Below, piece by piece: positions 5,023-58,913 of a stretch of DNA of 64,000 bases (position 1 is its first letter; every line of letters starts with the position of its first letter). The stretch covers positions 1 through 64,000 of the forward strand of contig NZ_JAKREW010000017.1 of the NCBI RefSeq assembly GCF_022347545.1, written 5' to 3'. The notes beneath the pieces were generated by a model, which did no database searches, was not told where the DNA came from, and saw nothing but the letters and a program-made list of their open reading frames with translations. The stretch comes from Terribium retamae (lineage in GTDB: Bacteria; Pseudomonadota; Alphaproteobacteria; Rhizobiales; Rhizobiaceae). The position numbers and the translations under genes were made by a program.

Positions 5023-6156
5023 ATGAGTGCCCGGTCTGAAACCAGCAATCCCAGGCTTGATGATGCCGCGCGTGCCGGCTGGCTCTATTATGTCGCCGGC
5101 AATACGCAGGACCAGATCGCAACGAAGCTCGGCATCTCGCGCCAGACCGCACAGCGGCTGGTCTCGCTGGCGATGTCGGAGGGGCTGATCAAGGTGCGGG
5201 TCGATCATCCCATCGCCAATTGCCTCGACCTTGCCGCCCGGCTGAAATCCCGCTTCGCGCTGGACCTGGTAGAGGTGACGCCGAGCGATCCAGATTCCAC
5301 GTCCTCGACCATCGGCGTAGCCCAGGCGGCGGCGGTGGAGATCGAGAAATGGCTGCGCCGGCCGGAGCCGGTCATCATGGCGATCGGCACCGGCCGCACC
5401 CTGAAGGCCGCGATCGAACAGCTGCCGCCGATGGAGTGCCCGCAGCACAAGGTGGTCTCGCTCACCGGCAACATCTCGCCGGACGGTTCGGCCGCCTTCT
5501 ACAACGTCATCTTCACCATGGCCGACACCATCAAGGCGCGCAGTTTCCCGATGCCGCTGCCGGCGATCGCCTCTTCGCCGGAAGAACGGAAAATGCTGCA
5601 CAGCCAGCAGCTTATCCAGCCAACGCTGGCCCTAGCGGCGCAGGCCGACATCACCTTTGTCGGCGTCGGCGATCTTGGTCCGCAGGCGCCGCTGCTGGAA
5701 GACGGATTCATCACCGAGGCCGATCTGAAGGCGTTGCAGAAGGCCGGCGCCGTCGGCGAGATCGTCGGCTGGGCCTTCGATCGCGACGGCCGCCTGATCG
5801 ACGGCATCACCAATGACCGCGTCGCCTCCGCGCCGCTGCCATCACGGGAACGCTCCCTGGTCGTGGGGGGGGGGCGGGGGGGCCCCCCCCCCCCCCCGGG
5901 GGCCCCCCCCCCCCCCCCCCGCGCAAGGGCAATTGGGGCGAAACCCGCCGGGCGCCCCCCCCCCCGCCCCCCCCCCCCACCCCCCCCGCGCGCCCCCCCC
6001 CCCCCGCCCCCCCCCGCCCCCCCCCCCGGGGGGGGGCCCCCCCCCCGGGGCGCGCCCAAGCTGCCCGGTATTCTCGCCGCCGTGACGCGACGTCTCGTCA
6101 ATGGCCTGATCACCGACGAGCGCACAGCCGAAAGCCTGCTGGCGGCGGCAGTCTAG
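5023..6156 (+). CDS. SorC/DeoR-type sugar-alcohol regulator, sequence damaged near the C-terminus
   Basis: The N-terminal part is a clean SorC-family regulator: helix-turn-helix around residues 27-52 (QDQIATKLGISRQTAQRLV) and a sugar-phosphate-binding domain with GTGRTLKAAI and the family C-terminal phrase LVNGLITDERTAESLL. Between SRERSLVVG and KLPGILAAV the frame runs through about 190 bp of poly-G/poly-C (5865-6056) that translates to Gly/Pro runs. Family members are near 315 residues; this reads 377. I think those bases are a sequencing or assembly fault that by chance kept the frame, and that the true protein has a short normal linker there. Position and family point to control of the smoEFGK operon that follows. 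Confidence 0.8.
   Translation: MSARSETSNPRLDDAARAGWLYYVAGNTQDQIATKLGISRQTAQRLVSLAMSEGLIKVRVDHPIANCLDLAARLKSRFALDLVEVTPSDPDSTSSTIGVAQAAAVEIEKWLRRPEPVIMAIGTGRTLKAAIEQLPPMECPQHKVVSLTGNISPDGSAAFYNVIFTMADTIKARSFPMPLPAIASSPEERKMLHSQQLIQPTLALAAQADITFVGVGDLGPQAPLLEDGFITEADLKALQKAGAVGEIVGWAFDRDGRLIDGITNDRVASAPLPSRERSLVVGGGRGGPPPPPGAPPPPPRARAIGAKPAGRPPPRPPPPPPPRAPPPPPPPAPPPGGGPPPRGAPKLPGILAAVTRRLVNGLITDERTAESLLAAAV
5865..6056. other. near-homopolymeric G/C block inside the regulator, probable artefact
   Basis: Runs of 6-18 identical G or C bases with almost no A or T, interrupted by a short normal-looking patch at 5921-5953. Nothing else in the window resembles it. It sits inside a conserved family region and adds about 60 codons. 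Best read as a base-calling or assembly error; not a proline-rich domain. Confidence 0.85.
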
Positions 6157-8053: not shown

Positions 8054-8926
8054 ATGGCAACCAAACAGACCCGTACGCTTGCGCGTTTCATGGCCGCACC
8101 TTCGGTGCTGCTCCTGCTGATCTGGATGGCCGTGCCGCTGGCGGTCACGCTGTGGTTCTCCTTCCAGCAGTACAATCCGTTGAATCCGATCCGCGACCGT
8201 TTCGTCGGTTTTGCGAACTATGCGCTGTTCTTCAACAATCCTGCCTTCTCGACGGCCATCCTCAACACGCTGATCATCGTCGCTGCAGTGCTCGCCATCA
8301 CCATCATCGGCGGCATCCTGTTGGCTCTGCTGCTCGACCAGCCGATGTGGGGGCAGGGCTTCGTGCGTATCCTGGTCATTTCGCCCTTCTTCGTCATGCC
8401 GCCGGTGGCGGCGCTTGTGTGGAAGAACATGATCATGCATCCGGGCTACGGCGTCTTTGCCGACATAGCGCGGTTCTTCGGGGCGCAACCGATCGACTGG
8501 TTCGCGCAATATCCGCTGTTTTCGATCATCATCATCGTTGCCTGGCAGTGGCTGCCTTTCGCCACGCTTATCCTGCTCACCTCGCTGCAATCGCTGGACG
8601 GCGAGCAGAAGGAAGCGGCCGAAATGGACGGAGCCGGCTTCCTCGCCCGCTTTTGGTATCTGACGCTGCCGCATCTCTCGCGCGCCATTACCGTTGTGGT
8701 GCTGATCCAGACGATCTTCCTGCTTTCGGTCTATGCCGAGATCCTCGTCACCACCAATGGCGGGCCGGGCTATGCGTCCACCAACCTGCCGTTCCTCGTC
8801 TACCAGAAGGCCCTGCTCGAATACAAAATCGGCCAGGCGTCCGCCGGCGGCATCATCGCCGTCATCCTTGCCAACATCGTTGCCTTCTTCGCGATGCGCG
8901 CCGTCGGCAAGAACCTGGACAAGTAG
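8054..8926 (+). CDS. smoF: polyol ABC transporter, permease 1
   Basis: A 290-residue MalF-type inner-membrane permease with about six membrane helices and the coupling loop EAAEMDGAGFLARFW (near 195-210) that contacts the ATPase. The ATG at 8054 follows a GGAGGAG site and matches the usual N-terminus (MATKQTRTLARF). It forms the translocation channel with SmoG. The 3' end is 9 bp from smoG. Confidence 0.9.
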   Translation: MATKQTRTLARFMAAPSVLLLLIWMAVPLAVTLWFSFQQYNPLNPIRDRFVGFANYALFFNNPAFSTAILNTLIIVAAVLAITIIGGILLALLLDQPMWGQGFVRILVISPFFVMPPVAALVWKNMIMHPGYGVFADIARFFGAQPIDWFAQYPLFSIIIIVAWQWLPFATLILLTSLQSLDGEQKEAAEMDGAGFLARFWYLTLPHLSRAITVVVLIQTIFLLSVYAEILVTTNGGPGYASTNLPFLVYQKALLEYKIGQASAGGIIAVILANIVAFFAMRAVGKNLDK

Positions 8927-8935
8927 GAGGCAACA

Positions 8936-9760
8936 ATGGCACGCGCCGTCACCAACCGGCACAAGACGATCGCAACGATTGCGGCCTGGGCTGTCGCGCT
9001 CGTGATCTTCTTTCCGATCCTCTACACCATCATCACCTCCTTCAAGTCTGAGCAGGAGGCGATCCAGGGCTTCAGCCTGATCCCGTCGGGCACGCTGGAG
9101 AGCTATGCGGAAGTCCAGTCGCAATACAATTACTTCAAGCCGTTCATGAACTCGGTGATCCTCGCGCTGGGCTCGACATTGCTGGCCCTGGTCGTCGCGA
9201 TCCCGGCCGCCTGGTCGATGGCGTTCTCGCCCACCAAGCGCACCAAGGACGTGCTGATGTGGATGCTGTCCACCAAGATGATGCCGGCCGTGGCGGTGCT
9301 GTTTCCGATCTACCTGATCTTCCGCAATCTCGGCCTGCTCGACAGCCGCATCGGCATGACCGTGATGCTGATGCTGATCAACCTGCCGATCGTCATCTGG
9401 ATGCTCTACACCTATTTCCGCGAGATTCCCGGCGAAATCCTGGAAGCCGCGCGCATGGACGGCGCCACGCTGTGGGGCGAGATCCTCTATGTGCTGACGC
9501 CGATGGCGGTGCCGGGCATCGCCTCCACAATGCTGCTCAACATCATCCTGGCCTGGAACGAGGCGTTCTGGACCATCCGTCTCACCACCACCAACGCCGC
9601 TCCGCTCACCGCCTTCATCTCGTCCTTCTCAAGTCCGCAGGGACTGTTCTGGGCGAAGCTGTCGGCTGCGTCGACGCTGGCCATCGCGCCGATCCTGATC
9701 ATGGGATGGTTCAGCCAGAAGCAGCTGGTGCGCGGCCTGACCTTCGGCGCCGTGAAGTGA
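8936..9760 (+). CDS. smoG: polyol ABC transporter, permease 2
   Basis: A 274-residue MalG-type permease: six hydrophobic segments and the EAA loop EAARMDGATLWGEI (near 178-192) followed by VLTPMAVPG. The ATG at 8936 has a TAGGAGG site directly after the smoF stop. Partner of SmoF in the membrane; ATP drive comes from SmoK. Confidence 0.9.
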   Translation: MARAVTNRHKTIATIAAWAVALVIFFPILYTIITSFKSEQEAIQGFSLIPSGTLESYAEVQSQYNYFKPFMNSVILALGSTLLALVVAIPAAWSMAFSPTKRTKDVLMWMLSTKMMPAVAVLFPIYLIFRNLGLLDSRIGMTVMLMLINLPIVIWMLYTYFREIPGEILEAARMDGATLWGEILYVLTPMAVPGIASTMLLNIILAWNEAFWTIRLTTTNAAPLTAFISSFSSPQGLFWAKLSAASTLAIAPILIMGWFSQKQLVRGLTFGAVK

Positions 9761-38470: not shown

Positions 38471-38529
38471 GAGCGTTTCCGTTTTGAGCGGAAACGCCTA
38501 GCTTCTTACGCTTTTCCAGGATTGCTCTA
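38471..38529. repeat. Mesorhizobium-type intergenic palindrome, copy B
   Basis: GCGTTTCCG (38473-38481) and CGGAAACGC (38489-38497), then CTTTTCCAGGATTGCTCTAG; the order is inverted relative to copy A at 33670-33762. It lies in the gap between the convergent histidine kinase and puuB genes and may stop transcription from either side. Confidence 0.7.
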
Positions 38530-39813
38530 GATCCGGTCGCGCAGCGCGAACCAGTTGAGCGCCAGAAACAGCAGCGGCGCACGGAAGCGACGTCCGCCGG
38601 GGAAGGGTGGAATCTTCAAGTCCTCGATCAGTCTGAGCCGATCGCGATTGCCGGATACGGTTTCGGCATAAAGCTTGCCGAAGAAGTTCGACAGCATGAC
38701 GCCGTGTCCGGAATAGCCGCCGACGGAGATGACGTTCGGCATGACCTCGCGCACGAATGGCTTGCGCGGCACGGTGATGCCGACATAGCCGCCCCAGCCA
38801 TGGGTGATCTCGACATCCTTCAGCGCCGGGTAGATCTCGGTGATCTGCTTGCGGATGTGGATATGGATGTCCTTGGGATCGTTGACCGCATAGACCTCGC
38901 GCCCGCCAAACAACAGCCGGTTGTCCTTGGACTTGCGGAAATAGCGCACCACGAAACGGGAATCGTCGACGGACTCGCCGCCCGGCAATACTTTCAGTTC
39001 GTCACCCAGCGGCACGGTCGCGCCGATGAAGGAGCCGATTGGCATGATGTGTGCCGCGCTAACAGGCTCGAGATTGCCGCCATAGGCGTTGGCGGCGAGC
39101 AGGCATTTGTCGGCAGTGATCGCGCCGCGTGCCGTCGTCACCTTCACCTTGCCGCCCTGCGCCGAGATGCCGGTGGCAGGGCTCTTTTCGAAGATATGCG
39201 CACCGGCAGCCGCGGCCACGCGCGCGGTGCCGATCACCAGCTTCAACGGATGGATATGGCCGGTGCCGCTGTCGCGGCTGCCGCCATGATAAAGCGTCGA
39301 GCCCAGCCGTTCTGCTGTCTCCCTGGCGTCCATGAATTGGATGTGCGGATAGTCGAAGCGCGTCGCCATGATTTCGGCATGCGCCTTGTAGTCGTCGACG
39401 TAGCGCGGCTTATGTGCCACCGATAGCTGCCCGGGCATGTAGTCGATCTCGATGCCGTTGGCGGCGGAGAAGTCGATCAGATGCGCCTTGGCCTCTTCGG
39501 CCAGGTCGAACAGCGCCTTGGCGCGCGTGAAGCCGTACTCGCTTTCCAATTCTTCCGCCCAGGCGCGCTGGCCCGTGCCCAATTGCCCGCCATTGCGGCC
39601 GGAGGCGCCATCGCCAAAGCGATGGCTTTCCAGCAGCACGACGTTGGTGCCGGCCTTGGCCAGGTGCGCGGCCGCCGAAAGACCGGTGAAGCCGCCGCCG
39701 ATGATGACGACGTCGGCCTGCCGATCGCCGTCGAGTGCCGGATATTCAGGCCGCGGCCCGGCGCTGTCTTCGTACCAGGAGCGACCGGGAGAGATGGGGG
39801 ATTGGTAGGGCAT
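38527..39813 (-). CDS. puuB: gamma-glutamylputrescine oxidase-like FAD enzyme
   Basis: A 428-residue DAO-family flavoenzyme: FAD motif VVIIGGGFTGLSAAAHLAKAG (about 35-55), RNGGQLGTGQR, and the C-terminal GYSGHGVMLSNFFGKLYAE. It is closest to PuuB / OrdL-type oxidases that oxidise gamma-glutamylputrescine to the aldehyde plus H2O2. The puuA-like glutamine synthetase gene is upstream on the same strand, separated only by a four-helix-bundle gene, which supports the pathway. The N-terminus overlaps the edge of an octamer-repeat array. Confidence 0.85.
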   Translation of the reverse strand: MPYQSPISPGRSWYEDSAGPRPEYPALDGDRQADVVIIGGGFTGLSAAAHLAKAGTNVVLLESHRFGDGASGRNGGQLGTGQRAWAEELESEYGFTRAKALFDLAEEAKAHLIDFSAANGIEIDYMPGQLSVAHKPRYVDDYKAHAEIMATRFDYPHIQFMDARETAERLGSTLYHGGSRDSGTGHIHPLKLVIGTARVAAAAGAHIFEKSPATGISAQGGKVKVTTARGAITADKCLLAANAYGGNLEPVSAAHIMPIGSFIGATVPLGDELKVLPGGESVDDSRFVVRYFRKSKDNRLLFGGREVYAVNDPKDIHIHIRKQITEIYPALKDVEITHGWGGYVGITVPRKPFVREVMPNVISVGGYSGHGVMLSNFFGKLYAETVSGNRDRLRLIEDLKIPPFPGGRRFRAPLLFLALNWFALRDRI

Positions 39814-39823
39814 GAGGGCTTTC

Positions 39824-39862
39824 GGGAATAGGGCAATAAGGGATTAGGGCAGTAAGGCAAAT
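39824..39862. repeat. octamer repeat array, left flank of four-helix gene
   Basis: Five near-identical 8-base units on the plus strand: (T)GGGAATA style units GGGCAATA, AGGGATTA, GGGCAGTA and AGGCAAAT, at exact 8-bp period. The matching array on the other side (40244-40291) runs in inverted orientation. It starts 11 bp from the puuB start codon and ends 5 bp before the stop of the four-helix gene. Confidence 0.75.
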
Positions 39863-39867
39863 GCCAG

Positions 39868-40236
39868 CTAATCCTCGGATAGTTTCCGCATCAGCAACCG
39901 CAAAAGCTTTCCGATGCTTTCACTTCCTTCAAGCAACGGGTCGATCGAAGATTGTGTTGCGAGCCCAACGCGTTGCGAGATTAAAAGATGCGTTTCCAAT
40001 TCCTTCAGCGAGCCTTGTGCAATACGCAGAAATTGCAGGTACGAGCCCCGGTTCTCGCGCCCGTAACCTTCTGCGATGTTGGCGGCGACGGACACTGCAG
40101 CCCGCCGCACCTGGCTGGTCAAACCGTAGAGTTCTTCTTTCGGCCAATCCCTCGTCGTCTCATACGACGAGACGGCCAGGTCCATCGCTTGCTGCCAGAT
40201 CAAGAGATCCCGGTATGACCGAATTTCGTTTGGCAC
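39868..40236 (-). CDS. four-helix-bundle (S23/IVP, Avd-like) protein
   Basis: A 122-residue protein of the family usually encoded in 23S rRNA intervening sequences, with conserved phrases RDLLIWQQAMDLAV, GLTSQVRRAAVSVAANIAEGYGR and FLRIAQGSLKELETHLLISQR. It folds as an antiparallel four-helix bundle, is highly basic on one face, and is thought to bind nucleic acid; the Avd accessory protein of diversity-generating retroelements is a relative. Here it stands alone between puuB and puuA with no reverse transcriptase or rRNA, flanked by inverted octamer arrays. That looks like a small inserted unit. ATG 40236 reads MPNEIRSYRDLL. Confidence 0.88.
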   Translation of the reverse strand: MPNEIRSYRDLLIWQQAMDLAVSSYETTRDWPKEELYGLTSQVRRAAVSVAANIAEGYGRENRGSYLQFLRIAQGSLKELETHLLISQRVGLATQSSIDPLLEGSESIGKLLRLLMRKLSED

Positions 40237-40243
40237 GTTCGTT

Positions 40244-40291
40244 CCCCCACTCGCGCCATTGCCCTATTCCCCTACTGCCTTACTCCCCTAG
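40244..40291. repeat. octamer repeat array, right flank of four-helix gene
   Basis: Six 8-base units at exact period, plus strand CCCCCACT, CGCGCCAT, TGCCCTAT, TCCCCTAC, TGCCTTAC, TCCCCTAG; their complement matches the unit consensus of the left array (39824-39862). The puuA stop codon (40288-40290) lies in the last unit. Confidence 0.75.
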
Positions 40292-41721
40292 ACATTTAGC
40301 AACAGATATTCCCTCTCCCACGGGCTGATCACTTCCATGAAGGTCTCGAATTCCGCGCGTTTGATCGCCGCATAGGTGGCGGCGAAGGTGCGGCCGAGCA
40401 TGGCGGCCAGTTCCTCGTCGCCTTCGAACAGATCGACGGCTTCGAGCAGGCCGCGCGGCAGGTCGATCTCGTCCTCATTGGCCGTGGTCAGCACCGGCGG
40501 TTCGGCCGGCACCTTGTTGTTGATGCCGATCAGGCCGCAGGCCAGCGAGGCCGCGAGCGCCAGATAGGGGTTGGCGTCCGACGACGGAATGCGGTTTTCC
40601 ACGCGGCGCGCATTGGGGTCGGAACGCGGCACGCGGAAGGCGGTGGTGCGGTTGTCGTAGCCCCATTTGTTGTTGACTGGGGCGGACGCTGCCTGCGTGA
40701 GGCGGCGGTAGGAGTTCACATAAGGCGCGAACATCACCAGCGCATTCGGCACATGCTTCTGCATGCCGCCGATAAAATGGAAAAAGGCTTCCGTCTCGGT
40801 GCCGTCTTCCGCCGAGAAGATGTTCCTGCCGGTCTTCTTGTCGACGATCGACTGGTGGATGTGCATGGCCGAGCCCGGCTGGCCCTGGATAGGCTTGGCC
40901 ATGAAGGTGGCATAGACGTCGTGCTTCAGCGCTGCTTCGCGCAAGGTACGCTTGAACAGGAACACCTGGTCGGCCAGTTCGATCGGGTCGCCATGGCGCA
41001 GATTGATCTCGAGCTGGCCCGCGCCTTCTTCGTGGATCAGCGTATCGATCTCGAGGCCCTGCGCCTCGGAGAAGTGATAGATGTCGTCGATCAGTTCGTC
41101 ATATTCGTTGACGCCGGCGATTGAATAACCTGAGCCGCCGGCGATCGGCCGGCCCGAGCGGCCGACCGGCGGGGTCAGCGGATAGTCGGGGTCCGGGTTC
41201 TTGCGTACCAGATAGAATTCGATTTCGGGAGCGACGACGGGTCTCAGCCCATGCCGGTCGTAGGCGGCCACCACGCGCTTCAGCACGTTGCGCGGCGTGA
41301 ACTCGACAGCGCGGCCATCCTGGTGGACAAGATCGCAGATGACGGAGGCGGTCGGGTCTTCTTCCCATGGCACGGCGGTCAGCGTCGAAAGATCGGGCAC
41401 GAGCTTCAGGTCGCCGTCGTCTTCCGGATATTCGAAACCATTGCCGTCTTCCGGATACTGGCCGGAAATCGTCATCATGAAGGGTGCCGAAGGCAGCGCC
41501 AGCGAGGTGTTGGAGGTGAATTTGGACGACGGCATCATCTTGCCGCGAGCGACTCCGGCCTGATCCGGCGTGATGCACTCGATGTCTTCGATGCCGCGCC
41601 ATTCCAGCCAGGCGCTCGCCTCCTTGAAGCTCTTCACTCCCCTGAGATTTTTCAGAAAGGCAGGCGCGCGGGTTCGTGTCCCCCGGCTCGACGGACGGAC
41701 TTCCTTCTTGGCAGGCGGCAT
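40288..41721 (-). CDS. puuA: gamma-glutamylputrescine synthetase-like glutamine synthetase
   Basis: A 477-residue glutamine-synthetase-fold ligase: PEIEFYLV, HEEGAGQLEINLRHGD, GSAMHIHQS (ATP/metal region), NSYRRLTQAASAPVNNKWGYDNRT and the ENRIPSSDANPYLALAASLACGL block. These are typical of the GlnA-like PuuA group that couples glutamate to putrescine or other amines. ATG 41721 is used; the codon before it is TTG. With puuB it forms the first two steps of gamma-glutamylated polyamine breakdown. A PotFGHI importer is 8 kb away. Confidence 0.87.
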   Translation of the reverse strand: MPPAKKEVRPSSRGTRTRAPAFLKNLRGVKSFKEASAWLEWRGIEDIECITPDQAGVARGKMMPSSKFTSNTSLALPSAPFMMTISGQYPEDGNGFEYPEDDGDLKLVPDLSTLTAVPWEEDPTASVICDLVHQDGRAVEFTPRNVLKRVVAAYDRHGLRPVVAPEIEFYLVRKNPDPDYPLTPPVGRSGRPIAGGSGYSIAGVNEYDELIDDIYHFSEAQGLEIDTLIHEEGAGQLEINLRHGDPIELADQVFLFKRTLREAALKHDVYATFMAKPIQGQPGSAMHIHQSIVDKKTGRNIFSAEDGTETEAFFHFIGGMQKHVPNALVMFAPYVNSYRRLTQAASAPVNNKWGYDNRTTAFRVPRSDPNARRVENRIPSSDANPYLALAASLACGLIGINNKVPAEPPVLTTANEDEIDLPRGLLEAVDLFEGDEELAAMLGRTFAATYAAIKRAEFETFMEVISPWEREYLLLNV

Positions 41722-41851
41722 CAATCACCAGATTGTGGTTGCAGATTACCGAGTATAGCCGTGGCCCCAGACGGAAGAAAAGGGGGGATCATGCCGGTTC
41801 TGCTGGCACACGCGTTCTAAATGGCTGGTTTTGGGCTGTTTTTCGACTTAG

Positions 41852-58696: not shown

Positions 58697-58913
58697 GTGC
58701 GTCCTTCGAGGCTCGCCCGCATAATATTCGCTATAATTCCAATGTCTTGCGGGCTCGCACCTCAGGATGAGGACTGTTGCGTAAGGTCCCTTCATTCTGA
58801 CACCTTGGAGAATTGAGGAGGCCTGGCACGACCGCCCTCATCCTGAGGTGCGAGCCCGCACCTTAATCAAAACTATTGCGCTGTGTTTTGCGGGCGAGCT
58901 TCGAAGGACGCAC
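58697..58913. repeat. 217-bp nested inverted-repeat element
   Basis: Outer arms of 24 bp (58697-58720 and 58890-58913) with one mismatch, starting GTGCGTCCTTCGA; inner arms of 25 bp (58748-58772 and 58836-58860), perfect, containing GCACCTCAGGATGAGG. No gene inside. The inner arm motif is a common dispersed repeat in rhizobial genomes. The 522-bp gap 58430-58951 thus holds an RNA candidate, this element and a tandem repeat. Confidence 0.85.

Follow-up and report, generated by a model that had tools for sequence, protein, structure and literature searches.

A stretch of 64,000 nucleotides from the genome of Terribium retamae (hereafter the window; contig NZ_JAKREW010000017.1, positions 1 to 64,000) carries, between the genes puuA and puuB, a small element made up of a PF05635 gene enclosed by two inverted arrays of tandem 8-bp units. 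The same architecture, in which a PF05635 gene lies between inverted tandem arrays of 7-bp or, less often, 8- or 9-bp units within about 460 bp, recurs around members of the family in many phyla. Elements of this kind come and go at fixed sites, gene-less arrays are dispersed in genomes of the genus, and the abundance of these arrays follows the repeat length of the resident gene. We put at roughly 60% the probability that the window element belongs to a widespread and so far undescribed class, here called hairpin-array elements, in which the PF05635 protein helps arrays of matching period to spread or persist.

The element at the puuA/puuB junction

The two arrays of the window element are periodic and mutually inverted. 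In the array downstream of the gene (positions 39824 to 39860, minus strand) 20 of 29 positions agree at a lag of 8, and in the upstream array (40258 to 40290, minus strand), which was located by Tandem Repeats Finder and lag-8 matching, 19 of 25 agree, with far fewer at other lags. Read on the gene strand, the upstream or 5' array is G-rich and runs TAGGGGAG TAAGGCAG TAGGGGAA TAGGGCAA T, while the downstream or 3' array is C-rich and is the reverse complement of the same family. The arms pair without gaps at 23 of 28 positions, and their local pairing score of 31 was reached by none of 5000 shuffles (shuffle maximum 28). These results bear out the exact 8-bp period and the mutual inversion described in a first-pass annotation of the window. 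Its counts of five units on the left and six on the right need revision, as our recount gave about 4.5 and 4. In the predicted RNA of the whole unit (-195.7 kcal/mol, z = -4.3) the arms form the closing stem. Terminal inverted repeats that close a stem around an open reading frame (ORF), a trait of the intervening sequences (IVSs) of 23S rRNA, are present here at a puuA/puuB junction, not in 23S rRNA.

The gene between the arms (39868 to 40236, minus strand) encodes 122 amino acids from a GTG start codon with GGGGGAA ahead of it. Its product matches PF05635 with 122.1 bits (cut-off 33.8) and the NCBIfam model TIGR02436 with 117.8 bits (cut-off 24), in agreement with the earlier placement of an S23-family gene between puuB and puuA. 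The AlphaFold2 model of the monomer (predicted local distance difference test score 96.4) is an up-down bundle of four helices, and its best structural match is 2GSC, the protein XCC0516 of Xanthomonas campestris (template modelling (TM) score 0.84-0.90), for which a homopentamer has been reported (as cited in PMC4990558). The bundle had been described as basic, which does not fit a protein with 15 lysines and arginines against 16 aspartates and glutamates. The window genome holds three PF05635 genes.

The arrays extend into one neighbour of the element and close to the other, much as had been noted. The upstream operon neighbour, a glutamine synthetase-family gene resembling puuA (40288 to 41724, minus strand), has its stop codon (40288 to 40290, TAG on the minus strand) inside the 5' array. 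The downstream operon neighbour, a puuB-like FAD (flavin adenine dinucleotide) oxidoreductase gene (38527 to 39813, minus strand), has its start codon at 39813, leaving 10 bp between that codon and the end of the 3' array. A plasmid search for the window locus gave matches only to the puuA region of Sinorhizobium, at 75% identity, and PADLOC returned no match.

Arrays around PF05635 genes in other genomes

A PF05635 gene is carried by 80 of 150 relatives and, in a sample of 398 genomes of the phylum, by 61. We oriented 153 such loci, most of which belong to the genus or phylum of the window, and compared them with the flanks of 88 neighbouring ORFs. Complementarity between the two flanks had a median score of 46 in the PF05635 loci and 18 in the controls (maximum 27). 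Free-standing members of the family lacking arrays had been named beforehand as evidence that would speak against a single unit of gene and arrays; what we found were arrays at nearly all members examined, with 128 of the 153 loci above the control maximum for complementarity. A tandem array beyond the 99% control threshold was present on at least one side of 138 loci, and the significant periods were 7, 8 or 14 (two units), with a single case of 13. Most members have heptamers, contrary to the earlier idea that the arrays are specifically octameric.

A scan of GTDB genomes yielded 80 named PF05635 loci, of which 78 were scored against 406 neighbouring ORFs. The named loci span Bacteroidota, Bacillota, Planctomycetota, Patescibacteria-type lineages, Chloroflexota, Thermodesulfobacteriota and Elusimicrobiota, as well as Xanthomonas, Bosea and one archaeal metagenome-assembled genome. 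The best period was 7, 8 or 14 on both sides in 79% of the scored loci and in 9.6% of the controls, and in complementarity only about half to three quarters of the named loci went beyond the 99% or 95% level of the controls. Tandem repeats do occur in AT-rich or repeat-rich genomes (9 of 406 control flanks); the neighbour-ORF and shuffle controls, together with reversed-pattern counts near zero, refute chance or low complexity as the source of the arrays, an explanation to which we attach a negligible probability. The sequence of the unit varies enormously among loci and its period hardly varies. Mapping the period on the PF05635 protein tree takes nine changes, compared with 16.7 when labels are shuffled (minimum 13), and the period is inherited along this tree. 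Unit length is not restricted to 7 and 8, since the arrays of a Muribaculaceae member (L255) have a period of 9.

Elements that carry the gene have a median span of about 460 nt (5-95%: 426-558). Their 5' arm, read inward, contains more G than C in 161 of 168 elements, and outside the genus G outnumbers C in the inward-read arm in 62 cases against 4 (p = 2e-14). Whichever side the reading starts from, the G-rich arm is met first. The order of units is shared between the two arms somewhat more than in permuted arms (realigned Smith-Waterman score 39.8 vs 37.0, p = 7e-5). Within the genus, inward stop codons number 406 against 6, and all three frames are stopped in 75 of 99 elements because the units contain TAG or TGA and recur at a period not divisible by three. 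Outside the genus the signal is weak (162 vs 98; 35 elements with more and 16 with fewer, p = 0.01). Inward stops were therefore dropped as a universal rule and kept as a trait of the genus, with G-rich polarity retained as the universal trait.

At the genus sites inspected by eye, namely puuA/puuB, acyl-CoA dehydrogenase/mmsB, nuoC/nuoD, an ATP-grasp/DUF403 pair and a fifth, the element is sense-oriented and lies directly at the codon that ends the upstream gene. An automatic test of the orientation of neighbouring genes was set aside, as arrays with stops in three frames also terminate spurious ORFs. One element (L152) lies inside 23S rRNA and has a heptameric stem, so that the classical 23S IVSs look like one site class of hairpin-array elements.

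Two further observations were made at these loci. In the genus, numerous copies of the PF05635 gene are fragments or carry frameshifts, with their arrays kept (L012-type loci, for example L033, L110, L112 and L113). Upstream of the PF05635 gene of one metagenome-assembled genome (L289), positions 8806 to 9230 hold two more heptamer arrays of the TAATGAA type, inverted relative to each other and 360 nt apart, which may enclose a further element of equal size.

Turnover at fixed sites and dispersed arrays

The puuA/puuB junction was compared in 44 species and holds 25 gene-bearing elements, 12 shorter inserts and a single octamer element whose gene has decayed, the remaining six junctions being empty and nine bases long. 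Eleven of the shorter inserts are array hairpins and one (L173) is a plain hairpin. Fixation of the gene at this locus in all relatives, the other finding named beforehand as contrary evidence, was not seen, and strains with puuA and puuB adjacent and no insert, for which the first-pass annotation had proposed a search, are found in the six empty species. Its suggestion that gene and arrays form one inserting unit gains from this site, which is empty, gene-less or gene-bearing according to species, and from the arrays at nearly all family members. On the puuB tree the state of the site changes 18 times, and well-supported sister pairs hold opposite states. Between rpsM and rpsK, the window genome (G000) and three others (G005, G038 and G021) have identical flanks around unrelated loops and arrays of the types TAGCGAA (G000), TCGGCAG (G005), TAGTGAG (G038) and TAGGGCAG (G021); another site is empty in G021. 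Different families and states at reused sites call for independent insertion or rewriting, and vertical decay alone is insufficient.

These sites bear on the idea that the element acts only in cis, as an intercistronic IVS-like stem that is cut by RNase III and tunes the operon mRNA, the protein binding its own stem and the differences between species reflecting loss and recombination. Such a role would agree with the closing stem in the predicted RNA, the sense orientation in operons at the inspected genus sites, the member in 23S rRNA and the excision of the Coxiella 23S rRNA IVS by RNase III (PMC4990558). It is made improbable by the presence of entirely different array families and loops at the same sites with intact flanks, by the many gene-less copies elsewhere, and by the trans association between gene period and array period described below.

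Dispersed heptamer arrays were counted with a pattern of three tandem TRGNSAR units, the reversed pattern serving as control. Four genus genomes gave 35, 137, 29 and 31 matches and the reversed pattern none; the matches overlap and long arrays are counted many times, so that sites are fewer than matches, about 15-20 in the window genome by this pattern. The pattern is present in 97 of 99 genus genomes, and an octamer pattern behaved similarly, with its reversed control near zero. The gene-less sites that were inspected are hairpins of two array arms with short loops, located between genes. A scan of 400 kb of one contig of the window genome found no strict array hairpin, so that their density in this genome is low.

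The dispersed arrays are associated with the gene by period. After each gene's own arms had been subtracted, dispersed 7-bp arrays were more numerous in genomes with a 7-bp-flanked gene (54 vs 25, p = 2.7e-7), and numbers of 8-bp arrays were similar (20 vs 24, p = 0.8). In genomes with an 8-bp-flanked gene it was the 8-bp arrays that were in excess (33 vs 16.5, p = 5e-5), with similar numbers of 7-bp arrays (38.5 vs 40, p = 0.55). All four p-values are unadjusted for relatedness. Independent pairs on the puuB tree gave 6.2 in the same direction and 0 in the opposite one for the 8-bp type (median p 0.03, range 0.008-0.125), and for the 7-bp type the right sign without significance (3.1 vs 0.5, p = 0.375). 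In other phyla, units of further arrays in the 20-kb neighbourhood of a gene lay within one mismatch of its own unit in 10 of 30 cases, compared with 8 of 480 when the units of other loci were used. The PF05635 gene behaves as if it acted in trans, and the excess of gene-less arrays of the same repeat length in gene carriers points to an undescribed mobile or self-spreading element.

Several points weigh against a protein that helps period-matched arrays to spread or persist. The pattern counts are inflated by overlap, the first set of p-values ignores relatedness, and the 7-bp pairs fall short of significance. Loops of the gene-less copies are mutually unrelated, unlike what copies of a single transposed element usually show, and genomes without a PF05635 gene retain arrays, in smaller numbers. 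About 25 copies of the gene are fragmentary or broken, and many PF05635 genes are therefore dead. Insertion elements with a transposase and miniature inverted-repeat transposable elements are recognised by a target-site duplication and by terminal inverted repeats that match a transposase-bearing element; inverted arrays and both empty and filled sites occur here, and no clean target-site duplication was found at these sites, where the flanks are too diverged to read one. Movement, binding of the arrays and RNase III processing are, moreover, inferred.

The unrelated loops, here among copies within one genome, and the arrays kept in genomes without the gene would also be consistent with arrays that are themselves mobile or self-amplifying, through replication slippage and gene conversion among dispersed copies, the PF05635 gene being a passenger that needs the RNA hairpin for its stability or expression. 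Expansion in one arm only (for example in L164 and L024) is likewise what slippage would give. Slippage, however, would neither furnish an empty site with two inverted, pairing arrays nor fix their polarity, the order of units is common to both arms beyond chance, and period-matched abundance follows the type of the resident gene. We regard autonomous arrays with a passenger gene as rather unlikely.

Possible mechanism and relation to known systems

If the PF05635 protein does promote arrays of matching period, then this protein, with its known pentamer-forming fold, may recognise, in RNA or in DNA, the array stem or a single strand and would promote the insertion, copying or retention of such arrays as the trans-acting gene of the array family. 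Inward stop codons and a position at operon junctions would make insertion tolerable. The stem in the transcript would probably be cut by RNase III, by analogy with the Coxiella 23S rRNA IVS, and the joining of DNA would probably be left to a host enzyme. A more specific account, which we offer tentatively and at well under even odds, is that the four-helix-bundle protein, which is not known to have catalytic activity, reads the unit length and drives in trans the spread or rewriting of inverted 7- and 8-bp hairpins at operon junctions in many phyla, a host polymerase or repair machine laying new arms at existing sites until the hairpins of a genome have been converted to the array family that it currently carries. 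The mechanism would then be open to tests in laboratory strains, given the small size of the gene, a partner repeat right next to it and the existence of period-matched controls.

The 23S rRNA IVSs of Coxiella and Leptospira hold an S23p/IVP ORF in an RNA hairpin, which in Coxiella has a stem of 28 bp; the IVSs are 428-444 nt long (PMC4990558). The elements described here resemble them in placing a PF05635 ORF in a hairpin closed by a terminal inverted-repeat stem, in their similar length (median 460) and in having one member (L152) in 23S rRNA. They differ in lying mostly at junctions of protein genes, in building the stem from tandem 7- or 8-bp units, in having dispersed gene-less relatives and in an array unit that varies by genome and site.

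Heptamer arrays have been described separately. The GGGAATC repeats of Xanthomonas and GGGGAYT repeats of Nostoc are intergenic and near gene ends, with 70-75 inverted pairs per genome in Xanthomonas and varying sequence at the same sites in two species; they have been read as simple repeats that form G-quadruplexes, with their role left open and no tie to mobile elements (Rehm et al. 2015, PMC4692102). Our arrays are likewise dispersed, intergenic and heptameric with inverted pairs, whereas those repeats were described without a protein partner. Xanthomonas codiaei (L330) has an array of this general kind 2.2 kb away from its PF05635 gene. The TAACTGA repeats of Beggiatoaceae are also intergenic heptamer arrays with stops in all three frames; unlike the inverted arms of our elements they are mostly direct, and no protein was identified, although the mobile element was suggested there, as a speculation, to be a protein that binds the repeats (MacGregor 2015, PMC4679880).

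Membership in a REPIN/RAYT-type or an Avd-type retroelement system is very improbable for these elements and is already largely refuted. In repetitive extragenic palindromic (REP) systems, a Y1 tyrosine transposase gene (REP-associated tyrosine transposase, RAYT) is accompanied by short palindromic repeats that form hairpins (REPINs; PMC3116915). A gene flanked by its own repeats, dispersed short extragenic hairpins and genome-specific repeat types are common to both. Our elements use tandem arrays instead of short palindromes, and membership was rejected since Y1_Tnp (PF01797) had no match in the window genome and matched control genomes; no further transposase family was included in this search. 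The Avd protein of diversity-generating retroelements (4DWL, 8UB7) is part of a ribonucleoprotein and has the same four-helix-bundle, pentamer-type fold, 4DWL being a more distant structural match to the window protein (TM 0.77-0.80). This membership was rejected as well, as no RVT_1 reverse transcriptase was found in four of six genomes (G000, G005, G009 and G021) and the Avd sequence model scored 17.3 bits on the window protein, far below its cut-off of 80.

Heptamer arrays and 23S IVSs were each known before. No paper linking PF05635 or the 23S IVSs to heptamer arrays was found in a partial coverage of the literature that leaves subscription papers outside and does not allow priority to be certified. 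If the connection is true, a single answer would serve for the role of the S23/IVP protein, for bacterial heptamer arrays (the Calothrix, Nostoc, Xanthomonas and Beggiatoa repeats of the literature) and for the origin of 23S rRNA intervening sequences, and a new class of transposase-less hairpin elements would extend across many phyla.

A few minor observations remain. A figure on the associations of adaptation modules in a large survey of clustered regularly interspaced short palindromic repeats (CRISPR) names '23S rRNA IVP' (PMC10910872); this might reflect heptamer arrays taken for CRISPR-like ones, or a real link. Between 1.0 and 1.4 Mb of the genome of a relative (G003; L373-L392), a different and abundant family of palindromic repeats, about 150-180 bp long (ATCTCCCCCCTCGTGGGGGAGATGGCCGGCAGG...), has dozens of copies in 400 kb. 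Within the window, positions 5868 to 6027 form a long G/C homopolymer-like tract, with runs of G and then of C (38 and 73 bases mostly C), which is odd for natural sequence and possibly an assembly artefact. Positions 58747 to 58860 of the window hold a perfect, non-periodic 25-bp inverted repeat with a loop of 63 nt.
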